A DNA stretch of 64,000 bases from Muricea muricata (Eukaryota > Cnidaria > Anthozoa > Malacalcyonacea > Plexauridae), in the NCBI GenBank assembly GCA_963855995.1, contig OY979718.1, positions 29,793,282-29,857,281 of the forward strand. Direction: 5' to 3'. Of this stretch, positions 1,055 to 64,000 are shown one piece after another. How positions within the stretch are numbered: position 1 is the stretch's first letter; each line of letters opens with the position of its first letter. The position numbers and the translations under genes were made by a program. A model generated the notes under the pieces. The model saw only the letters and a program-made list of their open reading frames with translations. It was not told the origin of the DNA and did no database searches.

Positions 1055-4000
1055 ATTATGTTTTCAGTGCTAAAGTGAACGAGTTGAGCGCAATAATGTA
1101 CTGCAATGACGGACCTAAAAGAGACCCAATAAATGGAAATTGCAGAACTTAGCAAGTCGGGAATCAGGTTTTCGACGCTCAAACCATCGGGATGAGCGAA
1201 ATGACATGTTGAAATGAGAAACATATAACTTGCTTGTACACTGAACAGAAACGATCTTAGAACCATAAAAATCGCGTTTTAAGTGTTCTAGAAGCGATTT
1301 GAGCGTAAAAACATGCTCAAATCACCAACTAAAAATCGCCGTTTTATGTCGATCAGGGCGACGTTTTAGAGCTTAAAATGATGTTTTCAGTGCTAAAGTG
1401 AACGAGTTGAGTGCAATGATGTACTGCAATAACGAACCTAAAAGAGACCTTCTAAATGGAAATAGCAGAACTTAGCAAGTCGGGAATCACGTTTTCGGCG
1501 CTCACACCATCGGGATAAGCGAAATGACATGTTGAAATGAGAAACCTATAACTTGCTTGTACACTGAACACAAACGATCTTAAAACTATAAAAATCGCGT
1601 TTTAAGCGCTCTAGAAGCGATTTGAACGTAAAAACATGCTGAAATCACCAACGAAAAGTTGCTGTTTTAAATCGATCAGGGTGACGTTTTAGAGCTTAAA
1701 ATGATGTTTTCAGTGCTAAAGTGAACAAGTTGAGCGCAATAATGTATTGCAATCACGGACCTAAAAGAGACCTAATAAATGGAAATTGCAGAACTTAGCA
1801 AGTCGGGAATCAGGTTTTCGGCGCTCAAACTATCGAGATGAGCGAAGTAACCCGTTGACATGAGAAACCTATAACTCTCTTGTAAACTGAAAAGAAACGA
1901 TCTTAGAACCAGCAAAAATTGCGTTTTAAGTGTTCTAGAAGCAATTTGAGCGTAAAAACATGCTCAAATCACCAACTAAAAATCGCCGTTTTATGTCGAT
2001 CAGGGCGACGTTTTAGAGCTTAAAATGATGTTTTCAGTGCTAAAGTGAACGAGTTGAGTGCAATGATGTACTGCAATGACGGACCTAAAAGAGACCCAAT
2101 AAATGGAATTTGCAGAACTTAGCAACTCGGGAATCATGTTTTCGGCGCTCAAACTATCGAGATGAGCGAAGTAACCCGTTGACATGAGAAACCTATAACT
2201 TTCTAGTAAACTGAACAGCAACGATCTTAGAACCATCAAAATTGCGTTTTAAGTGTTCTAGAAGCGATTTGAGCGTAAAAACATGCTCAAATCACCAACT
2301 AAAAATCGCCGTTTTATGTCGATCAGGGCGACGTTTTAGAGCTTAAAATGATGTTTTCAGTGCTAAAGTGAACGAGTTGAGTGCAATGATGTACTGCAAT
2401 AACGGACCTAAAAGAGACCTTCTAAATGGAAATTGCAGAACTTAGCAAGTCGGGAATCACGTTTTCGGCGCTCAAACCATCGGGATAAGCGAAATGACAT
2501 GTTGAAATGAGAAACCTATAACTTGCTTGTACACTGAACAGAAACGATCTTAGAACTATAAAAATCGCGTTTTAAGCGCTCTAGAAGCGATTTGAACGTA
2601 AAAACATGCTCAAATCACCAACGAAAAGTTGCTGTTTTAAATCGATCAGGGTGACGTTTTAGAGCTTAAAATGATGTTTTCAGTGCTAAAGTGAACAAGT
2701 TGAGCGCAATAATGTACTGCAATCACGGACCTAAAGGGGACCTAATAAATGGAAATTGCAGAACTTAGCAAGTCGGGAATCAGGTTTTCGGCGCTCAAAC
2801 TATCGAGATGAGCGAAGTAACCCGTTGACATGAGAAACCTATAACTCTCTTGTAAACTGAAAAGAAACGATCTTAGAACCAGCAAAATTGCGTTTTAAGT
2901 GTTCTAGAAGCGATTTGAGCGTAAAAACATGCTCAAATCACTAACTTAAAATCGCCGTTTTAAATCCATCAGGGTGACGTTTTAGAGCTTAAAATGATGT
3001 TTTCAGTGCTAAAGTGAACGAGTTAAGCGCAATAATGTACTGCAATGACGGACCTAAAAGAGACCCAATAAATGGAAATTGCAGAACTTAGCAAGTCGGG
3101 AATCAGGTTTTCGGCGCTCAAACCATCGGGATGAGCGAAATGACATGTTGAAATGAGAAACATATAACTTGCTTGTACACTGAACAGAAACGATCTTAGA
3201 ACCATAAAAATCGCGTTTTAAGTGTTCTAGAAGCGATTTGAGCGTAAAAACATGCTCAAATCACCAACTAAAAATCGCCGTTTTATGTCGATCAGGGCGA
3301 CGTTTTAGAGCTTAAAATGATGTTTTCAGTGCTAAAGTGAACGAGTTGAGTGCAATGATGTACTGCAATAACGAACCTAAAAGAGACCTTCTAAATGGAA
3401 ATTGGAGAACTTAGCAAGTCGGGAATCACGTTTTCGGCGCTCAAACCATCGGGATAAGCGAAATGACATGTTGAAATGAGAAACCTATAACTTGCTTGTA
3501 AACTGAACACAAACGATCTTAAAACTATAAAAATCGCGTTTTAAGCGCTCTAGAAGCGATTTGAACGTAAAAACATGCTGAAATCACCAACGAAAAGTTG
3601 CTGTTTTAAATCGATCAGGGTGACGTTTTAGAGCTTAAAATGATGTTTTCAGTGCTAAAGTGAACAAGTTGAGCGCAATAATGTATTGCAATCACGGACC
3701 TAAAAGAGACCTAATAAATGGAAATTGCAGAACTTAGCAAGTCGGGAATCAGGTTTTCGGCGCTCAAACTATCGAGATGAGCGAAGTAACCCGTTGACAT
3801 GAGAAACCTATAACTCTCTTGTAAACTGAAAAGAAACGATCTTAGAACCAGCAAAAATTGCGTTTTAAGTGTTCTAGAAGCGATTTGAGCGTAAAAACAT
3901 GCTCAAATCACCAACTAAAAATCGCCGTTTTATGTCGATCAGGGCGACGTTTTAGAGCTTAAAATGATGTTTTCAGTGCTAAAGTGAACGAGTTGAGTGC

Positions 4001-4824
4001 AATGATGTACTGCAATGACGGACCTAAAAGAGACCCAATAAATGGAATTTGCAGAACTTAGCAACTCGGGAATCATGTTTTCGGCGCTCAAACTATCGAG
4101 ATGAGCGAAGTAACCCGTTGACATGAGAAACCTATAACTTTCTAGTAAACTGAACAGCAACGATCTTAGAACCATCAAAATTGCGTTTTAAGTGTTCTAG
4201 AAGCGATTTGAGCGTAAAAACATGCTCAAATCACACCCTAAAAATCGCCGTTTTATGTCGATCAGGGCGACGTTTTAGAGCTTAAAATGATGTTTTCAGT
4301 GCTAAAGTGAACGAGTTGAGTGCAATGATGTACTGCAATAACGGACCTAAAAGAGACCTTCTAAATGGAAATTGCAGAACTTAGCAAGTCGGGAATCACG
4401 TTTTCGGCGCTCAAACCATCGGGATAAGCGAAATGACATGTTGAAATGAGAAACCTATAACTTGCTTGTACACTGAACAGAAACGATCTTAGAACTATAA
4501 AAATCGCGTTTTAAGCGCTCTAGAAGCGATTTGAACGTAAAAACATGCTCAAATCACCAACGAAAAGTTGCTGTTTTAAATCGATCAGGGTGACGTTTTA
4601 GAGCTTAAAATGATGTTTTCAGTGCTAAAGTGAACAAGTTGAGCGCAATAATGTACTGCAATCACGGACCTAAAGGGGACCTAATAAATGGAAATTGCAG
4701 AACTTAGCAAGTCGGGAATCAGGTTCTCGGCGCTCAAACTATCGAGATGAGCGAAGTAACCCGTTGACATGAGAAACCTATAACTCTCTTGTAAACTGAA
4801 AAGAAACGATCTTAGAACCAGCAA
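1055..4824. repeat. 6-monomer higher-order repeat, two copies (period 1,939 bp)
   Basis: The segments about 1,055-2,885 and 2,994-4,824 match monomer by monomer at an offset of 1,939 bp (six units). Linked rare variants recur at that offset. AACGAACCTAAAAG is at 1,431 and 3,370, CACAAACGATCTTAAAAC is at about 1,570 and 3,509, and the CTCGGGAATCATG plus ATGGAATTTGC monomer begins its open frame at 2,000 and 3,939. The copies diverge after 2,885/4,824, where GCAAAATTG is replaced by GCAAAAATTG and the following spacer changes. Confidence 0.85.
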
Positions 4825-5785
4825 AAATTGCGTTTTAAGTGTTCTAGAAGCGATTTGAGCGTAAAAACATGCTCAAATCACCAACTAAAAATCGCCGTTT
4901 TATGTCGATCAGGGCGACGTTTTAGAGCTTAAAATGATGTTTTCAGTGCTAAAGTGAACGAGTTGAGTGCAATGATGTACTGCAATGACGGACCTAAAAG
5001 AGACCCAATAAATGGAATTTGCAGAACTTAGCAACTCGGGAATCATGTTTTCGGCGCTCAAACTATCGAGATGAGCGAAGTAACCCGTTGACATGAGAAA
5101 CCTATAACTTTCTAGTAAACTGAACAGCAACGATCTTAGAACCATCAAAATTGCGTTTTAAGTGTTCTAGAAGCGATTTGAGCGTAAAAACATGCTCAAA
5201 TCACACCCTAAAAATCGCCGTTTTATGTCGATCAGGGCGACGTTTTAGAGCTTAAAATGATGTTTTCAGTGCTAAAGTGAACGAGTTGAGTGCAATGATG
5301 TACTGCAATAACGGACCTAAAAGAGACCTTCTAAATGGAAATTGCAGAACTTAGCAAGTCGGGAATCACGTTTTCGGCGCTCAAACCATCGGGATAAGCG
5401 AAATGACATGTTGAAATGAGAAACCTATAACTTGCTTGTACACTGAACAGAAACGATCTTAGAACTATAAAAATCGCGTTTTAAGCGCTCTAGAAGCGAT
5501 TTGAACGTAAAAACATGCTCAAATCACCAACGAAAAGTTGCTGTTTTAAATCGATCAGGGTGACGTTTTAGAGCTTAAAATGATGTTTTCAGTGCTAAAG
5601 TGAACAAGTTGAGCGCAATAATGTACTGCAATCACGGACCTAAAGGGGACCTAATAAATGGAAATTGCAGAACTTAGCAAGTCGGGAATCAGGTTCTCGG
5701 CGCTCAAACTATCGAGATGAGCGAAGTAACCCGTTGACATGAGAAACCTATAACTCTCTTGTAAACTGAAAAGAAACGATCTTAG
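3760..5785. repeat. 3-monomer tandem duplication (period 970 bp)
   Basis: The segments about 3,760-4,815 and 4,730-5,785 match at an offset of 970 bp, which is three monomers. The rare spacer variant CACACCCTAAAAATCG occurs at about 4,231 and 5,201 (and again near 8,754 in a larger duplicate). GGTTCTCGG occurs at about 4,723 and 5,693, whereas other copies read GGTTTTCGG. The unit is nested inside and extends the neighbouring 6-monomer repeat, so array growth here happened at more than one scale. Confidence 0.85.
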
Positions 5786-7465
5786 AACCAGCAAAATTGC
5801 GTTTTAAGTGTTCTAGAAGCGATTTGAGCGTAAAAACATGCTCAAATCACTAACTTAAAATCGCCGTTTTAAATCCATCAGGGTGACGTTTTTGAGCTTA
5901 AAATGATGTTTTCAGTGCTAAAGTGAACGAGTTGAGCGCAATGATGTACTGCAATCGCGGACCTAAAAGAGACCTTCTAAATGGTAATTGCAGAACTTAG
6001 CAAGTTGGGAATCAGGTTTTTGGCGCTCAAACCAACGGGATGAGCGAAATGACATGTTGAAATGAGAAACCTATAACTTGCTTGTAAACTGAAAAGAAAC
6101 GATCTTAGAACAATCAAAATCGCGTTTTAAGCGTTCTAGAAGTGATTTGAGCGTAAAAATATGCTCAAATCACCAACTTAAAATTGCCGTTTTAAATCGA
6201 TCAGGGTGACGTTTTAGAACTTAAAATGATGTTTTCTGTGCTAAAGTGAACGAGTTGAGCGCAATAACGTACTGCAATGACGGACCTGAAAGAGACACAA
6301 TAAATGGAAATTGCAGAACTTAGCAAGTCGGGAATCAGGTTTTCGGCGCTCAAACTATCGAGATGAGCGAAGTAACCCGTTGACATGAGAAACCTATAAC
6401 TCTCTTGTAAACTGAAAAGAAACGATCTTAGAACCAGCAAAAATTGCGTTTTAAGTGTTCTAGAAGCGATTTGAGCGTAAAAACATGCTCAAATCACCAA
6501 CTAAAAATCGCCGTTTTATGTCGATCAGGGCGACGTTTTAGAGCTTAAAATGATGTTTTCAGTGCTAAAGTGAACGAGTTGAGTGCAATGATGTACTGCA
6601 ATGACGGACCTAAAAGAGACCCAATAAATGGAATTTGCAGAACTTAGCAACTCGGGAATCATGTTTTCGGCGCTCAAGCTATCGAGATGAGCGAAGTAAC
6701 CCGTTGACATGAGAAACCTATAACTTTCTAGTAAACTGAACAGCAACGATCTTAGAACCATCAAAATTGCGTTTTAAGTGTTCTAGAAGCGATTTGAGCG
6801 TAAAAACATGCTCAAATCACCAACTAAAAACCGCCGTTTTATGTCGATCAGGGCGACGTTTTAGAGCTTAAAATGATGTTTTCAGTGCTAAAGTGAACGA
6901 GTTGAGTGCAATGATGTACTGCAATAACGGACCTAAAAGAGACCTTCTAAATGGAAATGGCAGAACTTAGCAAGTCGGGAATCACGTTTTCGGCGCTCAA
7001 ACCATCGGGATAAGCGAAATGACATGTTGAAATGAGAAACCTATAACTTGCTTGTACACTGAACAGAAACGATCTTAGAACTATAAAAATCGCGTTTTAA
7101 GCGCTCTAGAAGCGATTTGAACGTAAAAACATGCTCAAATCACCAACGAAAAGTTGCTGTTTTAAATCGATCAGGGTGACGTTTTAGAGCTTAAAATGAT
7201 GTTTTCAGTGCTAAAGTGAACAAGTTGAGCGCAATAATGTACTGCAATCACGGACCTAAAGGGGACCTAATAAATGGAAATTGCAGAACTTAGCAAGTCG
7301 GGAATCAGGTTTTCGGCGCTCAAACTATCGAGATGAGCGAAGTAACCCGTTGACATGAGAAACCTATAACTCTCTTGTAAACTGAAAAGAAACGATCTTA
7401 GAACCAGCAAAATTGCGTTTTAAGTGTTCTAGAAGCGATTTGAGCGTAAAAACATGCTCAAATCA
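4918..7465. repeat. Segmental duplication A, copy 1 (11-monomer offset, 3,554 bp)
   Basis: This matches 8,472-11,019 at a constant offset of 3,554 bp. Shared rare variants are CACACCC in the spacer, CGTTTTTGAGC (5,886 / 9,440), GTTGGGAATCAGG with TTTTTGGCG, CTCAAGCTATCG (about 6,675 / 10,229) and AAAACCGCCG (about 6,828 / 10,382). Private differences are few, for example GTCAATCAGG in copy 2. Confidence 0.85.
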
Positions 7466-54371: not shown

Positions 54372-56617
54372 TTCACGGACCTAAAAAAGACCTAATAAAT
54401 GGAAATTGCAGAACTTAGCAAGTCGGGAATCGGGTTTTCGGCGCTCAAACCATCGGGATGAGCGAAATCACATGTTGAAATGAGAAACCTATAACTTGCT
54501 TGTACACTGAACAGAAACGATCTTAGAACCATAAAAATCGCGTTTTAAGCGTTCTAGAAGCGATTTGAACGTAAAAACATGCTCAAATCACCAACGAAAA
54601 ATTGCTGTTTTAAATCGATCAGGGTGACGTTTTAGAGCTTAAAATGATGTTTTCAGTGCTAAAGTGAACGAGTTGAGCGCAATAATGTACTGCAATGACG
54701 GACCTAAAAGAGACCCAATAAATGGAAATTGTAGAACTTAGCAAGTCGGGAATCATGTTTTCGGCGCTCAAACTATCGAGATGAGCGAAGTAACCCGTTG
54801 ACATGAGAAACCTATAACTCTCTTGTAAACTGAAAAGAAACGATCTTAGAACCAGCAAAATTGCGTTTTACCCGTTCTAGAACGATTTGAGCGTGAAAAC
54901 ATGCTCAAATCACCAACTTAAAATCGCCGTTTTAAATCGATCAGGGTGACGTTTTTGAGCTTAAAATGATGTTTTCAGTGCTAAAGTGAACGAGTAAAGC
55001 GCAATGATGTACTGCATTCACGGACTTAAAAGAGACCTTTTAAATTGAAATTGCAGAACTAAGCATGTCGGGAATCATATTTTCGGCTCTCAAACCATCG
55101 ATAATTGGCAAAATAACACCTTGACATGAGAAACGTAGAGCTTACTTGTGAACTGAGAAGAAACGATCTTAGAACCATCAAAATCGCGTTTTAAGCATTC
55201 TAGAAGCGATTTGAACGTAAAAACATGCTCAAATCACCAACTAAAAATCGCCGTTTTATGTCGATCAGGGCGACGTTTTAGAGCTTAAAATGATGTTTTC
55301 AGTGCTAAAGTGAACGACTTGAGTGCAATGATGTACTGCAATAACGGACCTAAAAGAGACCTTCTAAATGGAAATTGCAGAACTTAGCAAGTCGGGAATC
55401 ACGTTTTCGGCGCTTAAACCATCGGGATAAGCGAAATGACATATTGAAATGAGAAACCTATAACTTGCTTGTACACTGAACAGAAACGATCTTAGAACTA
55501 TAAAAATCGCGTTTTAAGCGCTCTAGAAGCGATTTGAACGTAAAAACATGCTCAAATCACCAACGAAAAGTTGCTGTTTTAAATAGATCAGGGTGACGTT
55601 TTAGAGCTTAAAATGATGTTTTCAGTGCTAAAGTGAACGAGTTGAGCGCAATAATGTACTGCAATCACGGACCTAAAAGAGACCTAATAAATGGAAATTG
55701 CAGAACTTAGCAAGTCGAGAATCAGGTTTTCTTCGCTCAAACTATCGAGATGAGCGAAGTAACCCGTTGACATGAGAAACCTATAACTCTCTTGTAAACT
55801 GAAAAGAAACGATCTTAGAACCAGCAAAATTGCGTTTTACCCGTTCTAGAACGATTTGAGCGTGAAAACATGCTCAAATCACCAACTTAAAATCGCCGTT
55901 TTAAATCGATCAGGGTGACGTTTTTGAGCTTAAAATGATGTTTTCAGTGCTAAAGTGAACGAGTTGAGCGCAATGATGTACTGCATTCACGGACCTAAAA
56001 GAGACCTTCTAAATTGAAATTGCAGAACTAAGCATGTCGGGAATCATATTTTCGGCTCTCAAACCATCGATAATTGGCAAAATAACACCTTGACATGAGA
56101 AACGTAGAGCTTACTTGTGAACTTAGAAGAAACGATCTTAGAACCATCAAAATCGCGTTTTAAGCATTCTAGAAGCGATTTGAACGTAAAAACATGCTCA
56201 AATCACCAACTAAAAGTTGCAGTTTAAAATCGATCAGGGTGACGTTTTAAAGCATAAAATGATGTTTTCAGTGCTAAAGTGAACGACTTGAGCGCAATGA
56301 TGTACTGAAATCAGGGACCTAAAAGAGACATTCTAAATGTAAATTGCAGAACTTAGCAAGTCGGGAATCAGGTTTTCGGCGCTCAAACCATCGGGATGAG
56401 CGAAATGACATGTTGAAATCAGAAACCTATAACTTGCTTGTAAACAGAACAGAAACGATCTTAGAACCAACAAAATCGCGTTTTAAGCGTTCTAGAAGCG
56501 ATTTGAGCGTAAAAATATGCTCAAATCACCAACTAAAAGTTGCCGTTTTAAATCAATCAGGGTGACGTTTTAAAGCTTAAAATGATGTTTTCAGTGCTAA
56601 AGTGAACGAGTTGAGCG

Positions 56618-56620
56618 CAA
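56618..56620. other. Target-site duplication CAA, left copy
   Basis: The satellite reads GAGCGCAA up to the insert and CAATGATG after it, whereas intact monomers read GAGCGCAATGATG, so CAA is duplicated. A 4-bp reading (GCAA) is possible only if the terminal G of the right end is assigned to the target, which would make the element ends asymmetric. Confidence 0.85.
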
Positions 56621-56655
56621 CACGCCTGGCATTTTTGCATGCGAAAACGCTAGTT
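56621..56655 (+). repeat. Left terminal inverted repeat of the transposon (35 bp)
   Basis: It begins CACGCCTGGCATTTTTG and matches the reverse complement of 59,752-59,786 at 33 of 35 positions. Mismatches are at positions 18 (C here, A in the partner) and 27 (A here, T in the partner). Similarity stops after CGCTAGTT. Confidence 0.93.
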
Positions 56656-56938
56656 TAAAGTGTGACAATTTTTTTGCCACCGCGCGTCAAAATTGGAGAG
56701 CTTGGTAGCGAATTTAATTCTTGAAAAATTCTTTAAATTCATCGAGTTATTCCTCGTGCGCGTTTTCCTGGAGGATTATCTGATGGTAATAGGGAGATAG
56801 AGGGTTTTTCGAGGATCAAAATGATATCAATATTGCCATGGTTACATGCAATGTTTTTCTACGGGAAGGCTTCTTGTTCGAGGCATTTCGCGCAATGGCG
56901 ACTTTTTGTACGGTGTTGTAAAAATGTGACAACTTCGG

Positions 56939-56996
56939 CTTGTATAGGCTCCTTCGTTCCGGCTTCTTTTCATTTAATTTTTGTTGCCTATACAAG
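56939..56996. repeat. Perfect 11-bp inverted repeat, CTTGTATAGGC / GCCTATACAAG
   Basis: The arms are at 56,939-56,949 and 56,986-56,996 with a 36-bp spacer. It lies about 320 bp inside the left terminus. It could be a subterminal protein-binding site or a chance dyad. The symmetry is all I can see. Confidence 0.6.
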
Positions 56997-57426
56997 TTAA
57001 GACATCTATAAAAGTTTGTATGTTTTTTGTTTTTCGAAAAATGTTAGTAAAACATAAAAAATTGCTTTTACAAAGGCATGAATTTTGGCGAATTGTGAAT
57101 AAAGGTGCAAGAAATGGTTCGGCGCGTTCACGGTTAAAGGGAAGGATCAAAAAGCTAAAAACACAACTCAAAAACCTAAGCGATTGCTCCAAAAGGTAGG
57201 AAACGTGTTATAGATTTTGTATTTCTTGTGATAACGTTTCTGATTTATTGTTTTTCCATAAAATTTCAAGTCAACATATCACAATATAGTATTCATCAAA
57301 GAAGAACTCACATATATTTTTGTGTTGATGAATTTATTTTCGCCTGTTAAAGTGCCTAAGTTTGTTAACTGTTCAGAAAATCTGCTATTTAAAAGTAGTT
57401 GTAATATATATAATGCTATATTTTGC

Positions 57427-57442
57427 TATATATATATATATA
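57427..57442. repeat. TA dinucleotide microsatellite (8 units)
   Basis: A run of eight TA repeats follows TTTTGC and precedes GTGTTCATATG. A shorter TATATATA run lies about 25 bp upstream. It is a simple repeat inside the transposon, likely length-variable. Confidence 0.9.
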
Positions 57443-57470
57443 GTGTTCATATGCCACAATGGGTTTTAGT

Positions 57471-57585
57471 ATAACCACTACACCAAGCTCAATGATATGG
57501 CCCAGGTCAATGATCATTAAAAATTTCTGCCAGACTAAAATTAACAACTCTCTGAAAGAAAATGAAAATAGATGTAGTTGGTTAT
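57471..57585. repeat. Weak foldback: ATAACCACTACA / TGTAGTTGGTTAT
   Basis: The arms at 57,471-57,482 and 57,573-57,585 pair with one bulged base across a spacer of about 90 bp. This may be the eroded ends of a small nested element. No flanking duplication is evident, so it could also be chance in AT-rich DNA. Confidence 0.35.
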
Positions 57586-58480
57586 GATATGTTTGTGCTA
57601 TGCTGGTGATTTATAGGGCTAAACATTTTGCACTAATCCACTTGACAGTCAAGCTATAAGTACTACATGGCCCAACCCAGAGTAATGAATTTATTATAAA
57701 TTGATAGATGATTATTAGCAAAGAGAAATTGATGGTTGATGATTGCCGGGAAAGATTTTGTTAATAGTGAACAATATGGGCTATATATTTATTGAGAGTT
57801 ATTGTTAATAGTACACCTGTTTTAGACATCTGCATTTGAAAGGACTGTTTAATAGTCAGCAATTAAAGGTGATTTTGTATAAAGCTTGACATAGTACAGA
57901 ATATATTTGAATTCACCTATGCCTGCACCATTGTATATATTAATATTTTTCTGCTATTTATACAATTTCTTATATCATTGTGCTATGTGAGCCAAATTAG
58001 TAATTCAAGAATTATAACAAAAAATGTTTACAGCAAATTTCTTTTCAAAATATATGATTAAAGTTCTGATTTCTAATCATCTTGTCTTAGCCAAATTTTA
58101 GTGGGTTGAACAAAACACCTGAAACATGATATATTTGATAGGTTGGTGACATATATGCTATAACATTTATGATCTGACCAAACTAACATTCTGCTTGTGT
58201 TATTTAGATTGTTTCCAACTGCCTGTATCAGCTGACATCACAAGTCATAAATCATATTATGATTATCATAATTAGGGCAGACATTGTGTGGTCTCCCCCA
58301 AGCAGATATTTGGTAGATTTTAACTATATTATTACCCACCTATATAAGGTTATTATACAAACAAGTTATAAGTTTTCACAGGAAGGTCAGGGTTTTGCAC
58401 ATCAGACAATTAATGAACCTATATGTGTCACATTGTACTAGGGTGTAATTGCCTAATTGGTCAAATTAGTTAACTTTTTT

Positions 58481-58664
58481 ATAGTTTGCCTAAGCCATTG
58501 AGCAACAGATCCCCCTTGGCAAGTAAAATTGGTTTCATAGTGGGTAATACTGAACATGTCCCCACTACTTCATTACACATATACATAATAGACTATTGCT
58601 TTTACTTGTCAAGGGAAGCCTATGGATACTAACTGTTTGAACCATTGAGTCCGAAGCAAACTAT
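58481..58664. repeat. Nested foldback, about 184 bp, MITE-like remnant
   Basis: Three arm pairs are concentric. ATAGTTTGC at 58,481-58,489 pairs with GCAAACTAT at 58,656-58,664. CCCTTGGCAAGTAAAA at 58,513-58,528 pairs with 58,600-58,615 at 15 of 16 positions. TAGTGGG at 58,538-58,544 pairs with CCCACTA at 58,561-58,567. CCATTGAG also occurs as a direct repeat on each side (58,495 and 58,642). I find no convincing target duplication. A decayed foldback element is the simplest reading. Confidence 0.6.
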
Positions 58665-58823
58665 GACAATATATGAATTTAAGACAATTTATTCAGTATT
58701 TAATTTTAAATTTACAAAGCCTGTAACTATTGTGTAAATTACAGTAATTAACCATATAAAATAAAAAACAGTTTTGCTTTTTATCTTTTGTTGGTCTAAT
58801 TCACACAAATGATATAGAGAATA

Positions 58824-58927
58824 ATACATGGGTGCTCGGAAATACCAGATGTATTTCGAGTGTTGAACATGATATCTCACGAGTAAGCGCAGAGAAATAA
58901 ATCTGGTAATTCCAAGCACCCATGTAT
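58824..58927. mobile_element. Short MITE-like element with 27-bp inverted ends, nested in the transposon
   Basis: The arms 58,824-58,850 and 58,901-58,927 are inverted repeats with 25 of 27 matches: ATACATGGGTGCTCGGAAAT on the left pairs with a right arm reading ATTCCAAGCACCCATGTAT. About 50 bp separate them. If the ends are CATGGGTGCT...AGCACCCATG, the flanks on both sides are TA, as expected for a Tc1/mariner-type target duplication. TA also falls inside the symmetric sequence, so the duplication is not proven. The whole unit is about 100 bp and non-coding. Confidence 0.65.
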
Positions 58928-59040
58928 TTTTCTGTTTATTATTATAAACTACAGGTTTTCCACCAATATAAAATGTCCAGAAGCTATGATTGGTAATTGT
59001 TTGAAAAGCGATAATTTTGACATGTGAAATGATCATAAAT

Positions 59041-59076
59041 AATCTCACATGTGAGATTAATCTCACATGTGAGATT
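59041..59076. repeat. Doubled 18-bp perfect palindrome
   Basis: AATCTCACATGTGAGATT is its own reverse complement and occurs twice in immediate succession (59,041-59,058 and 59,059-59,076). The 36 bp are therefore both a direct and an inverted repeat and could form alternative hairpins. A degenerate half (CATGTGAAATGATC) lies just upstream. It may be a slippage product or a binding site. Confidence 0.85.
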
Positions 59077-59751
59077 ATCAGTTTTATCAGTGCTTAAAAT
59101 CCTTATAAAGCACTGTACTTTATATAATAAACTATAATAATGTACACCCTAACTAACAAAGCATCAGTTGTTGTATGACGAAACTGTTGAGACTTACACG
59201 ATGAGAATGTCTTTCATAAAATCTTTCTGCTTTTATATTGTTTATTGCTGTGACCATATTAATACTGTTTGGTGCAAATTCATTCTTGTACTAGTTTAGT
59301 AGCTAATGTATTACAAGATAGCATATTGTTTTCATATTTCTTGTGATCACTTCCTGACGGGTAAAAACTTCTAAACAAAGTTTCCAATTGTGTACTGTGA
59401 CAAGACAAGAAGATTTTGACAAAATTTGCTCGCACTCAGCTATTCACTGCAATAATGCAATTGTGACTGTCCAGTGTCCACTCTATCCAATATATAATCG
59501 AAGCCTTCACAGAGAAGAAAACGTGGCATGGAAAATTGTCCTGCTGTAACATTTGTACAATCCTTTCTTAAAAACTTAAATCCCTTCATTTTCCTTGCCA
59601 TAGTATTGTGCATCTCTTGTCTTATTGTAATTTGGGATTTCGTGCAAATAAAATTTGTTCGCCATTTTGAATCAATAACGAGGAATACTTGGTGTAAGCC
59701 GAAGTTATTGGATATTTTTTGCGGAGTAACCGCTGGATTTGCGTACAGGCG

Positions 59752-59786
59752 AACTAGCGATTTCGCATTCAAAAATGCCAGGCGTG
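59752..59786 (-). repeat. Right terminal inverted repeat of the transposon (35 bp)
   Basis: Read on the minus strand from 59,786 it begins CACGCCTGGCATTTTTG, then A, then ATGCGAAAT and CGCTAGTT. The first 17 bases are identical to the left end. It directly abuts satellite sequence starting CAATGATGTACTGC. Confidence 0.93.
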
Positions 59787-59789
59787 CAA
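59787..59789. other. Target-site duplication CAA, right copy
   Basis: Second copy of the 3-bp duplication, followed by TGATGTACTGCATTCACGG. This is the continuation expected for a monomer following the GTAAATTGC subfamily, as at 54,359 and 24,026. Confidence 0.85.
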
Positions 59790-59949
59790 TGATGTACTGC
59801 ATTCACGGACCTAAAAAAGACCTAATAAATGGAAATTGCAGAACTTAGCAAGTCGGGAATCAGGTTTTCGGCGCTCAAACCATCGGGATGAGCGAAATGA
59901 CATGTTGAAATGAGAAACCTATAACTTGCTTGTACACTGAACAGAAACG

Positions 59950-60605
59950 ATCTTAGAACCATCAAAATCGCGTTTTAAGCGTTCTAGAAGCGATTTGAAC
60001 GTAAAAACATGCTCAAATCACCAACGAAAAATTGCTGTTTTAAAACGATCAGGGTGACGTTTTAGAGCTTAAAATTATGTTTTCAGTGCTAATGTGAACG
60101 AGTTGAGCGCAATAATGTACTGCAATGACGGACCTAAAAGAGACCCAATAAATGGAAATTGCAGAACTTAGCAAGTCGGGAATCAGGTTTTCGGCGCTCA
60201 AACCATCGGGATGAGCGAAATGACATGTTGAAATGAGAAACCTATAACTTGCTTGTACACTGAACAGAAACGATCTTAGAACCATCAAAATCGCGTTTTA
60301 AGCGTTCTAGAAGCGATTTGAACGTAAAAACATGCTCAAATCACCAACGAAAAATTGCTGTTTTAAAACGATCAGGGTGACGTTTTAGAGCTTAAAATTA
60401 TGTTTTCAGTGCTAATGTGAACGAGTTGAGCGCAATAATGTACTGCAATGACGGACCTAAAAGAGACCCAATAAATGGAAATTGCAGAACTTAGCAAGTC
60501 GGGAATCAGGTTTTCGGCGCTCAAACCATCGGGATGAGCGAAATGACATGTTGAGATGAGAAACATATAACTTGCTTGTACACTGAACAGAAACGATCTT
60601 AGAAC
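59950..60605. repeat. Single-monomer tandem duplication next to the insert
   Basis: Two consecutive monomers both carry TTTTAAAACGATCAGG (60,031 and about 60,360, instead of AAATCGATC), AAAATTATG and GCTAATGTGAACG. The combination is otherwise absent from the left block, so the duplication is local to the right flank. Confidence 0.7.
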
Positions 60606-63600
60606 CATAAAAATCGCGTTTTAAGTGTTCTAGAAGCGATTTGAGCGTAAAAACATGCTCAAATCACCAACTAAAAATCGCCGTTTTATGTCGATCAGGG
60701 CGACGTTTTAGAGCTTAAAATGATGTTTTCAGTGCTAAAGTGAACGAGTTGAGTGCAATGATGTACTGCAATAACCAACCTAAAAGAGACCTTCTAAATG
60801 GAAATTGCAGAACTTAGCAAGTCGGGAATCACGTTTTCGGCGCTCAAACCATCGGGATAAGCGAAATGACATGTTGAAATGAGAAACCTATAACTTGCTT
60901 GTACACTGAACACAAACGATCTTAAAACTATAAAAATCGCGTTTTAATCGCTCTAGAAGCGATTTGAACATAAAAACATGCTGAATCACCAACGAGAAGT
61001 TGCTGTTTTAAATCGTTCAGGGTGACGTTTTAGAGCTTAAAATGATGTTTTCAGTGCTAAAGTGAACGAGTTGAGCGCAATAATGTACTGCAATCACGGA
61101 CCTAAAAGAGACCTAATAAATGGAAATTGCAGAACTTAGCAAATCGGGAATCAGGTTTTCGGCGCTCAAACTATCGAGATGAGCGAAGTAACCCGTTGAC
61201 ATGAGAAACCTATAACTCTCTTGTAAACTGAAAAGAAACGATCTTAGAACCAGCAAAATTGCGTTTTAAGTGTTCTAGAAGCGATTTGAGCGTAAAAACA
61301 TGCTCAAATCACTAACTTAAAATCGTCGTTTAAAATCCATCAGGGTGACGTTTTAGAGCTTAAAATGATGTTTTCAGTGCTAAAGTGAACGAGTAGAGCG
61401 CAATGATGTACTGCAATCACGGACCTAAAAGAGACCTTCTAAATGGTAATTGCAGAACTTAGCAAGTTGGGAATCAGGTTTTTGGCGCTCAAACCAACGG
61501 GATGAGCGAAATGACATGTTGAAATGAGAAACCTATAACTTGCTTGTAAACTGAAAAGAAACGATCTTAGAACAATCAAAATCGCGTTTTAAGCGTTCTA
61601 GAAGTGATTTGAGCGTAAAAATATGCTCAAATCACCAACTTAAAATTGCCGTTTTAAATCGATCAGGGTGACGTTTTAGAACTTAAAATGATGTTTTCTG
61701 TGCTAAAGTGAACGAGTTGAGCGCAATAACGTACTGCAATGACGGACCTGAAAGAGACACAATAAATGGAAATTGCAGAACTTAGGAAGTCGGGAATCAG
61801 GTTTTCGGCGCTCAAACTATCGAGATGAGCGAAGTAACCCGTTGACATGAGAAACCGAAAACTCTATAGTAAGCTTAACAGAAACGATCTTAGAACCATC
61901 AAAATTGCGTTTTACCCATTCTAGAACGATTTGAGCGTGAAAACATGCTCAAATCACCAACTAAAAATTGCTGTTTTAAATCGCTCAAGGTGACGTTTTA
62001 GAGCTTAAAATGATGTTTTCAGTGCTAAAGTGAACGAGTTGAGCGCAATAATGTACTGCAATGACGGACCTAAAAGAGACCCAATAAATGGAAATTGTAG
62101 AACTTAGCAAGTCGGGAATCAGGTTTTCGGCGCTCAAACCATCGGGATGAGCGAAATGACATGTTGAAATGAGAAACCTATAACTTGCTTGTACACTGAA
62201 CAGAAACGATCTTAGAACCATCAAAATCGCGTTTTAAGCGTTCTAGAAGCGATTTGAACGTAAAAACATGCTCAAATCACCAACGAAAAATTGCTGTTTT
62301 AAATCGATCAGGGTGACGTTTTAGAGCTTAAAATTATGTTTTCAGTGCTAATGTGAACGAGTTGAGCGCAATAATGTACTGCAATGACGGACCTAAAAGA
62401 GACCCAATAAATGGAAATTGCAGAACTTAGCAAGTCGGGAATCAGGTTTTCGGCGCTCAAACCATCGGGATGAGCGAAATGACATGTTGAGATGAGAAAC
62501 ATATAACTTGTTTGTACACTGAACAGAAACGATCTTAGAACCATAAAAATCGCGTTTTAAGTGTTCTAGAAGCGATTTGAGCGTAAAAACATGCTCAAAT
62601 CACCAACTAAAAATCGCCGTTTTATGTCGATCAGGGCGACGTTTTAGAGCTTAAAATGATGTTTTCAGTGCTAAAGTGAACGAGTTGAGTGCAATGATGT
62701 ACTGCAATAACGAACCTAAAAGAGACCTTCTAAATGGAAATTGCAGAACTTAGCAAGTCGGGAATCACGTTTTCGGCGCTCAAACCATCGGGATAAGCGA
62801 AATGACATGTTGAAATGAGAAACCTATAACTTGCTTGTACACTGAACACAAACGATCTTAAAACTATAAAAATCGCGTTTTAATCGCTCTAGAAGCGATT
62901 TGAACATAAAAACATGCTGAATCACCAACGAGAAGTTGCTGTTTTAAATCGATCAGGGTGACGTTTTAGAGCTTAAAATGATGTTTTCAGTGCTAAAGTG
63001 AACGAGTTGAGCGCAATAATGTACTGCAATCACGGACCTAAAAGAGACCTAATAAATGGAAATTGCAGAACTTAGCAAGTCGGGAATCAGGTTTTCGGCG
63101 CTCAAACTATCGAGATGAGCGAAGTAACCCGTTGACATGAGAAACCTATAACTCTCTTGTAAACTGAAAAGAAACGATCTTAGAACCAGCAAAATTGCGT
63201 TTTAAGTGTTCTAGAAGCGATTTGAGCGTAAAAACATGCTCAAATCACTAACTTAAAATCGTCGTTTTAAATCCATCAGGGTGACGTTTTAGAGCTTAAA
63301 ATGATGTTTTCAGTGCTAAAGTGAACGAGTTGAGCGCAATGATGTACTGCAATCACGGACCTAAAAGAGACCTTCTAAATGGTAATTGCAGAACTTAGCA
63401 AGTTGGGAATCAGGTTTTTGGCGCTCAAACCAACGGGATGAGCGAAATGACATGTTGAAATGAGAAACCTATAACTTGCTTGTAAACTGAAAAGAAACGA
63501 TCTTAGAACAATCAAAATCGCGTTTTAAGCGTTCTAGAAGTGATTTGAGCGTAAAAATATGCTCAAATCACCAACTTAAAATTGCCGTTTTAAATCGATC

Positions 63601-63831
63601 AGGGTGACGTTTTAGAACTTAAAATGATGTTTTCTGTGCTAAAGTGAACGAGTTGAGCGCAATAACGTACTGCAATGACGGACCTGAAAGAGACACAATA
63701 AATGGAAATTGCAGAACTTAGGAAGTCGGGAATCAGGTTTTCGGCGCTCAAACTATCGAGATGAGCGAAGTAACCCGTTGACATGAGAAACCGAAAACTC
63801 TATAGTAAGCTTAACAGAAACGATCTTAGAA
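60049..63831. repeat. 6-monomer higher-order repeat right of the insert, two copies (period 1,936 bp)
   Basis: Copies at about 60,049-61,895 and 61,985-63,831 match at 1,936 bp. Shared rare states are GCTAATGTGAACG, GTTGAGATGAGAAAC, TTTTAATCGCTC, TTGAACATAAAAAC, GCTGAATCACCAACGAGAAG (a 1-bp loss plus a substitution, 60,978 / 62,914) and CTCTATAGTAAGCTTAAC (61,862 / 63,798). The second copy diverges at about 63,832, where CATAAAAATCGCG replaces CATCAAAATTGCG. Confidence 0.88.
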
Positions 63832-64000
63832 CCATAAAAATCGCGTTTTAAGCGTTCTAGAAGCGATTTGAACGTAAAAACATGCTCAAATCACCAACGA
63901 AAAATTGCTGTTTTAAATCGATCAGGGTGACGTTTTAGAGCTGAAAATGATGTTTTCAGTGCTAAAGTAAACGAGTTGAGCGCAATAATGTACTGCAATG

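Follow-up and report, generated by a model that had tools for sequence, protein, structure and literature searches.

The ends of CACTA/EnSpm transposons are CACTA or CACTG. The available part of PMC12730594 takes CAC..GTG termini together with 3-bp target duplications as features of EnSpm, and the accessible text of PMC4298943 describes one animal CACTA family of the TRC type with CCC ends and 2-bp duplications. Chapaev elements, in the section of PMC4079192 that deals with them, generally have 3- to 4-bp duplications and invariable CAC/GTG ends, and the same section gives TWA as the target of Chapaev3. Transib and RAG1-type duplications are 5 bp in the extract of PMC4411706. The element described here lies in a 64,000-bp stretch of the genome of the octocoral Muricea muricata (the window; C3:29793282-29857281 in a genome of 453 Mb and 74 contigs), where it interrupts an array of a 323-bp satellite. 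It has CAC..GTG ends and is very probably a non-autonomous DNA transposon of the CACTA/Mirage/Chapaev (CMC) kind, moved by cut and paste and served in trans. The family that it represents is new, non-autonomous and well supported; it is large, has been active recently and belongs to a known kind, of which the element is a clean but mostly ordinary example.

Structure of the Element and Its Empty Site

The features of the window, in window coordinates, are as follows.

1-56620, plus strand: 323-bp satellite array left of the element (monomer match)
56618-56620, no strand: left target duplication CAA, seen directly
56621-59786, plus strand: apparently non-autonomous DNA transposon, subfamily A, 3,166 bp; copies at other places in the genome share its whole length
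56621-56655, plus strand: left 35-bp terminal inverted repeat, CATGCGAAAACG variant (80 genome matches, all listed: 66 exact and 14 with one mismatch)
58808-58943, no strand: imperfect foldback inside the element with 50-nt arms, 86% complementary; parts of it are inverted self-matches in many other copies
59657-59786, minus strand: block at the right end, about 130 bp long, to which the right ends of two other families are related
59752-59786, minus strand: right 35-bp terminal inverted repeat, AATGCGAAATCG variant (170 genome matches for both variants together, 100 of them listed)
59787-59789, no strand: right target duplication CAA, seen directly
59787-64000, plus strand: 323-bp satellite array right of the element (monomer match)

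The span 56618-59789 is the element plus CAA at both sides. The inverted ends match at 33 of 35 positions, with mismatches at positions 18 and 27, and the terminal repeats have the CAC..GTG form, which agrees with CMC-type elements, whose inverted termini are CA..TG and mostly CAC..GTG. The target is one satellite monomer near the middle of a large contig. The window is one array from end to end, the monomer covering 99.998% of it outside the element and having no minus-strand match in it, and the insert is the only large interruption of the 64 kb. Excision of the element with one CAA restores GAGCGCAATGATG, which occurs 58 times in the window, and the joined flank (322 bp) matches 186 other places in the window along more than 95% of its length, the best of them gapless and 99.69% identical. 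No RNA family over its gathering score and no tRNA was found in the window.

A sequence-only reading of the window had described a DNA transposon caught in a satellite, with 35-bp ends matching at 33 positions, CAA on both sides, a monomer that is continuous after removal, and empty sites nearby. The recomputed termini and the restored site bear this out. The three empty-site paralogues that it named are present, at coordinates 27-48 bp from those it gave (nearest true starts 24027, 36591 and 54352). It was also right that the element has no recognisable transposase. In the window copy the longest frame is 134 amino acids, and the five of its 12 frames of at least 60 amino acids that were sent to Pfam gave no match at E up to 1. 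No frame exceeds 114 amino acids in the subfamily consensuses, and the candidate enzyme described below has no match at a useful E-value in the window copy or the fetched copies, long members included. The element is thus apparently non-autonomous, with no recognised coding in the frames tested.

The Family in the Host Genome

The 35-bp end, searched with up to 3 mismatches, has 170 matches in the genome against 0 for a reversed control pattern, and the ends of the window element are therefore not a product of chance. The outer parts of the element recur as well, with 293 candidate genome places for window positions 56615-57200 (40 scored, 94-100% identical) and 344 for positions 59200-59789 (40 scored). 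A search of viral contigs with the 17-bp end returned nothing. When each left end is joined to the nearest facing right end within 30 kb, the 80 left-type and 83 right-type places form 73 pairs, two of which have a right end in common, so that at most 72 are real. Sixty of the 67 pairs shorter than 9.3 kb were fetched as copies, the remaining 7 and 4 further places being left out. In all 60 the left and right ends differ at 2 or 3 positions, and their asymmetry is therefore a family trait.

Among 50 aligned copies of 2.9-3.36 kb, 49 fall in three subfamilies (15, 26 and 8 copies) with one left over, and copies diverge by 0.16-2.45% from the consensus of their own subfamily. Because the window copy is only 0.16% (about 5 differences) from a copy on another contig (L017, C1:6461800-6464947), movement of the family appears, from sequence divergence, to be recent on any ordinary clock.

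The flanks of the fetched copies carry the mark of insertion. Duplications are 3 bp in 44 of the 60, 4 bp in 10, 2 bp in 2 and 1 bp in 1, and 3 have none; the 58 copies with distinct flanks give 44, 8, 2, 1 and 3 in the same order. The chance expectation per copy is 1/64 for 3 bp and 1/256 for 4 bp. The distinct-flank copies fit the 2- to 5-bp duplications of CMC-type elements, with no 5-bp duplication among them. The 4-bp duplications are not 3-bp ones extended by chance, because the ten sequences are not single-base runs and the 3-bp test fails in them. No target consensus appears among the duplications, TWA fitting 4 of the 44 that are 3 bp long. Further flanks show AGTT on both sides of an insertion on C6 and AAT on both sides of C1:69710386-69720959. 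The earlier proposal to look for further copies that share these ends and have 3-bp duplications gave a positive result, with the 170 end matches and 44 copies of this class; the duplication length that had been read from the window holds for most copies, and 4 bp has to be added to it for eight others.

Two of the copies that have no duplication are an abutting pair, L031 and L032 (C1:21710785/21710786), joined tail to head with zero bases between them and no outer duplication. Several long members (L011, L013, L023, L024, L031, L043 and L064) appear to be long through other inserted DNA, and several of these inserts have inverted ends of their own, one being a Tc1-like DDE_3 fragment. In L024, a nested 5.9-kb insert occupies element positions 1098-6979; its inverted ends are near CCAGGTTGCAGAGTTTGC, its insertion point shows a 9-bp overlap, and it contains a frame of 405 residues that has no Pfam match. 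Elsewhere, three left ends at C1:69087883, 69148116 and 69167372 share the same mutation, and their non-satellite left flanks differ at 1 of 300 bp from the first; they are another multiplied insertion. A fourth left end with that mutation, at C1:69710386, has a different flank.

Related Families and a Candidate Transposase

A second family, with ends CACGCTTGGCAAAAATGCATGC, is nested at position 186 of C1:17665124-17677962. This place, flanked by the duplication CTG, had looked like a 12.8-kb autonomous copy of the window family, but it contains the nested family and is without a match in either transposase search, some 9 kb of its length not having been read. Another candidate long copy, C4:12783069-12795177, was read in part and is common with the family only over its left 269 bp. 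When up to 3 mismatches are allowed, the end pattern CACGCTTGG is matched 94 times in the genome and its control 0 times; the 94 matches form 42 pairs, 36 of them 2.6-3.7 kb long. Some of the matches are a third variant, CACGCTTGGCAAAAACGCACGC, which bounds a distant 8,348-bp relative at C1:9328470-9336817 that has an open frame of 744 residues ending at 9331938.

The three kinds of element are connected at their right ends. The right end of the relative is 75% identical to that of the second family over 129 bp, the right end of the second family is 71% identical to that of the window family over 130 bp, and the relative and the window family compared directly are 81% identical over 36 bp. The context CAAAATGGCG is common to all three about 120 bp inward, and in the window element the right-end block holds an ATG (59665, minus strand) within it. 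The window family is thus part of a wider group, some members of which are likely autonomous, a link that is made by the ends alone. The sequence-only reading had expected a full-length relative that encodes a transposase and would settle the superfamily; a relative with a transposase-like frame exists, its ends being related rather than identical, and the superfamily is not settled by it.

The part that was read, the last 311 of the 744 residues, matches no Pfam model at E up to 10 and nothing in the PDB, and a PDB search with a C-terminal piece of this fragment gave five weak and unrelated matches. The fragment has 132 matches in the genome at 32-100% identity, or 112 places after merging within 5 kb. 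The nearest match (C1:14399854-14400783) is 96% identical, has a frame of 743 residues and lies 5.2 kb from a third-variant end, the corresponding distance in the 8,348-bp relative being 4.9 kb. Searches for the fragment found no confirmed relative in viral contigs, where 1 stretch matched the pattern, in prokaryote genomes, where 39 did, or in phages. The C(2)C and H(3-4)H motifs of DDE/D transposases are not clear by eye in the 311 residues. At the C-terminus there is an EG.E pattern, which resembles the surroundings of the RAG1 catalytic glutamate; the score of the RAG1 alignment is reached by 148 of 3000 shuffles, and a relationship to RAG1 is a weak lead rather than evidence.

We infer the following mode of movement. 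A transposase from a related autonomous element would be supplied in trans and would bind the asymmetric 35-bp ends. The 3.2-kb DNA would be excised by that transposase and then joined to a staggered cut in the target, and repair of the cut would leave the 3-bp, sometimes 4-bp, duplication. The relative at C1:9328470-9336817 shows how an autonomous member of the wider group might look, and it or a closer one may move the window family.

Classification and Alternative Explanations

The earlier assignment to CACTA/EnSpm-like or Chapaev-type elements fits the ends and the duplications, and the enzyme evidence places the window family in neither. It is somewhat unlikely that the family is CACTA/EnSpm proper, moved by the Transposase_21 (PF02992) enzymes of this genome. 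The CAC..GTG termini and 3-bp duplications agree with the EnSpm features in the available part of PMC12730594, and the genome holds 64 PF02992 matches, 54 of them over the cut-off, those without an internal stop lying in open frames of up to 906 residues. However, none of the 64, whose own ends were not read, lies in a pair of the window family's ends (CACGCCTGG), the frame of the 8.3-kb relative has no PF02992 match, and the number of 9-mers common to the subterminal regions is no more than shuffles give. The ends of the window family begin with CACGCC, and 8 of the 58 distinct-flank copies have 4-bp duplications; the animal TRC-type family in the accessible text of PMC4298943, with its CCC ends and 2-bp duplications, differs from it on both counts. 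A place in Chapaev, as distinct from Chapaev3, is a reasonable possibility, short of probable. The CAC/GTG ends and 3- to 4-bp duplications given in the relevant section of PMC4079192 match 52 of the 58 copies, but PF06918, the domain linked to Chapaev, has no genome match over the cut-off in a search that covered this model and not the Chapa zinc finger, neither it nor PF02992 matches at the place of the relative's frame, and the window family's own enzyme has not been found. Chapaev3 shares CAC..GTG and 3 bp with the family and differs in its TWA target. In favour of Transib and RAG1-type elements, the C-terminus of the relative's frame faintly resembles RAG1, whereas the 5-bp duplications in the extract of PMC4411706 contrast with the 3-4 bp seen here.

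The autonomous relatives may instead represent a transposase lineage outside the named CMC groups. This is rather unlikely; the 311 residues lack a Pfam or PDB match although their family is large and diverse, but the tested part is C-terminal only. A more specific proposal, which we regard as unlikely, is that the enzyme family, whose frames have about 744 residues, forms a sister lineage to the CMC/RAG1-like transposases that has so far gone unrecognised, that its elements are marked by CAC..GTG ends and duplications of 3-4 bp, and that it still moves non-autonomous families in this genome, including into satellite arrays. Once fully read, this family could bear on the RAG1/CMC transposase tree. 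Satellites are prone to recombination copying and to assembly error, and the insert might have been copied in by recombination or misassembled rather than transposed. This is extremely improbable, as unlinked copies have the exact ends in common and 52 of the 58 distinct-flank copies, mostly outside the satellite, have short flanking duplications. A non-autonomous transposon of the CMC kind is the reading that we prefer, and several points weigh against it. Six of the 58 copies have neither a 3- nor a 4-bp duplication, and beyond the terminal repeat the families have little in common at their left ends. The flanking duplication of the relative is a stretch of A, 4 at one end of the element and 5 at the other, and is weak evidence, and the enzyme is known from the last 311 residues of one frame. 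No transposase-bearing element with the window family's own ends (CACGCCTGGCATTTTTG) was found, although 6 pairs above 10 kb, 7 shorter ones and 4 other places were not read through, some of them only at their ends or flanks, and the 73 pairs contain none of the 132 transposase matches and none of the 64 PF02992 matches.

Insertions across Satellite Arrays

Allowing up to 3 mismatches, a 28-bp word of the satellite matches 39,595 times in the genome and its control 0 times. This corresponds to about 12.8 Mb, or a 2.8% share of all bases, and is a lower bound because diverged arrays are missed. Six more events join the 58 to give 64 insertion events with distinct flanks; four of the six are defined only by what lies to their left (C5, C6c, C9 and a C1 event that has three copies). 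Eight of the 64 are in the satellite: that of the window on C3, one on C5, two on C6, one on C10 in a diverged array, and one each on C11, C15 and C16. The family has thus inserted into the satellite independently at least 8 times, on seven contigs, and the transposon described as single is so only in the window. The excess over the 2.8% share (P = 4e-4) is not firm because that share is a lower bound. The eight insertions sit at 32-62% of their contigs, which suggests, without proving it, that the 323-bp satellite is centromeric or pericentromeric. Three of the eight cluster near monomer position 84-88 (P = 0.016), which is a hint, the cluster having been seen before it was tested and the C10 position set by eye.

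Two of these insertions were multiplied together with the satellite array, their copies having identical flanks. The C11 insertion (L054-L056, 8.26-8.29 Mb) has three copies, spaced 12.9 and 15.2 kb; the 380 bp on either side of them are identical, and over 3,215 bp they differ by no more than 1 base. One of the two insertions on C6 has two copies, with 320 bp of identical flank. The window insertion is alone in its 64 kb, with no multiplication as far as the window shows. Just to its right, at about 60110-63990, a six-monomer block of 1,936 bp stands in tandem, 0-0.93% apart in the five monomer pairs compared. The sequence-only reading held that the insertion is later than the last homogenisation of its host monomer. 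This order is compatible with the data rather than demonstrated by them, because the host monomer differs by 1.55% from the monomers nearest to it in sequence, whereas the next ones on the right sit in the tandem block, and the order is the opposite on C11 and C6. Recent insertions within the satellite are markers of array turnover, and one element could clock the arrays on seven contigs.

The family is concentrated on C1 (124 Mb), which has 44 of the 67 window-family pairs against 27.4% of the bases (P = 8e-11). The same contig has 30 of the 42 related-family pairs, 47 of the 64 PF02992 matches and 91 of the 112 transposase places. Only 2 of its 44 pairs lie at 38-90 Mb.
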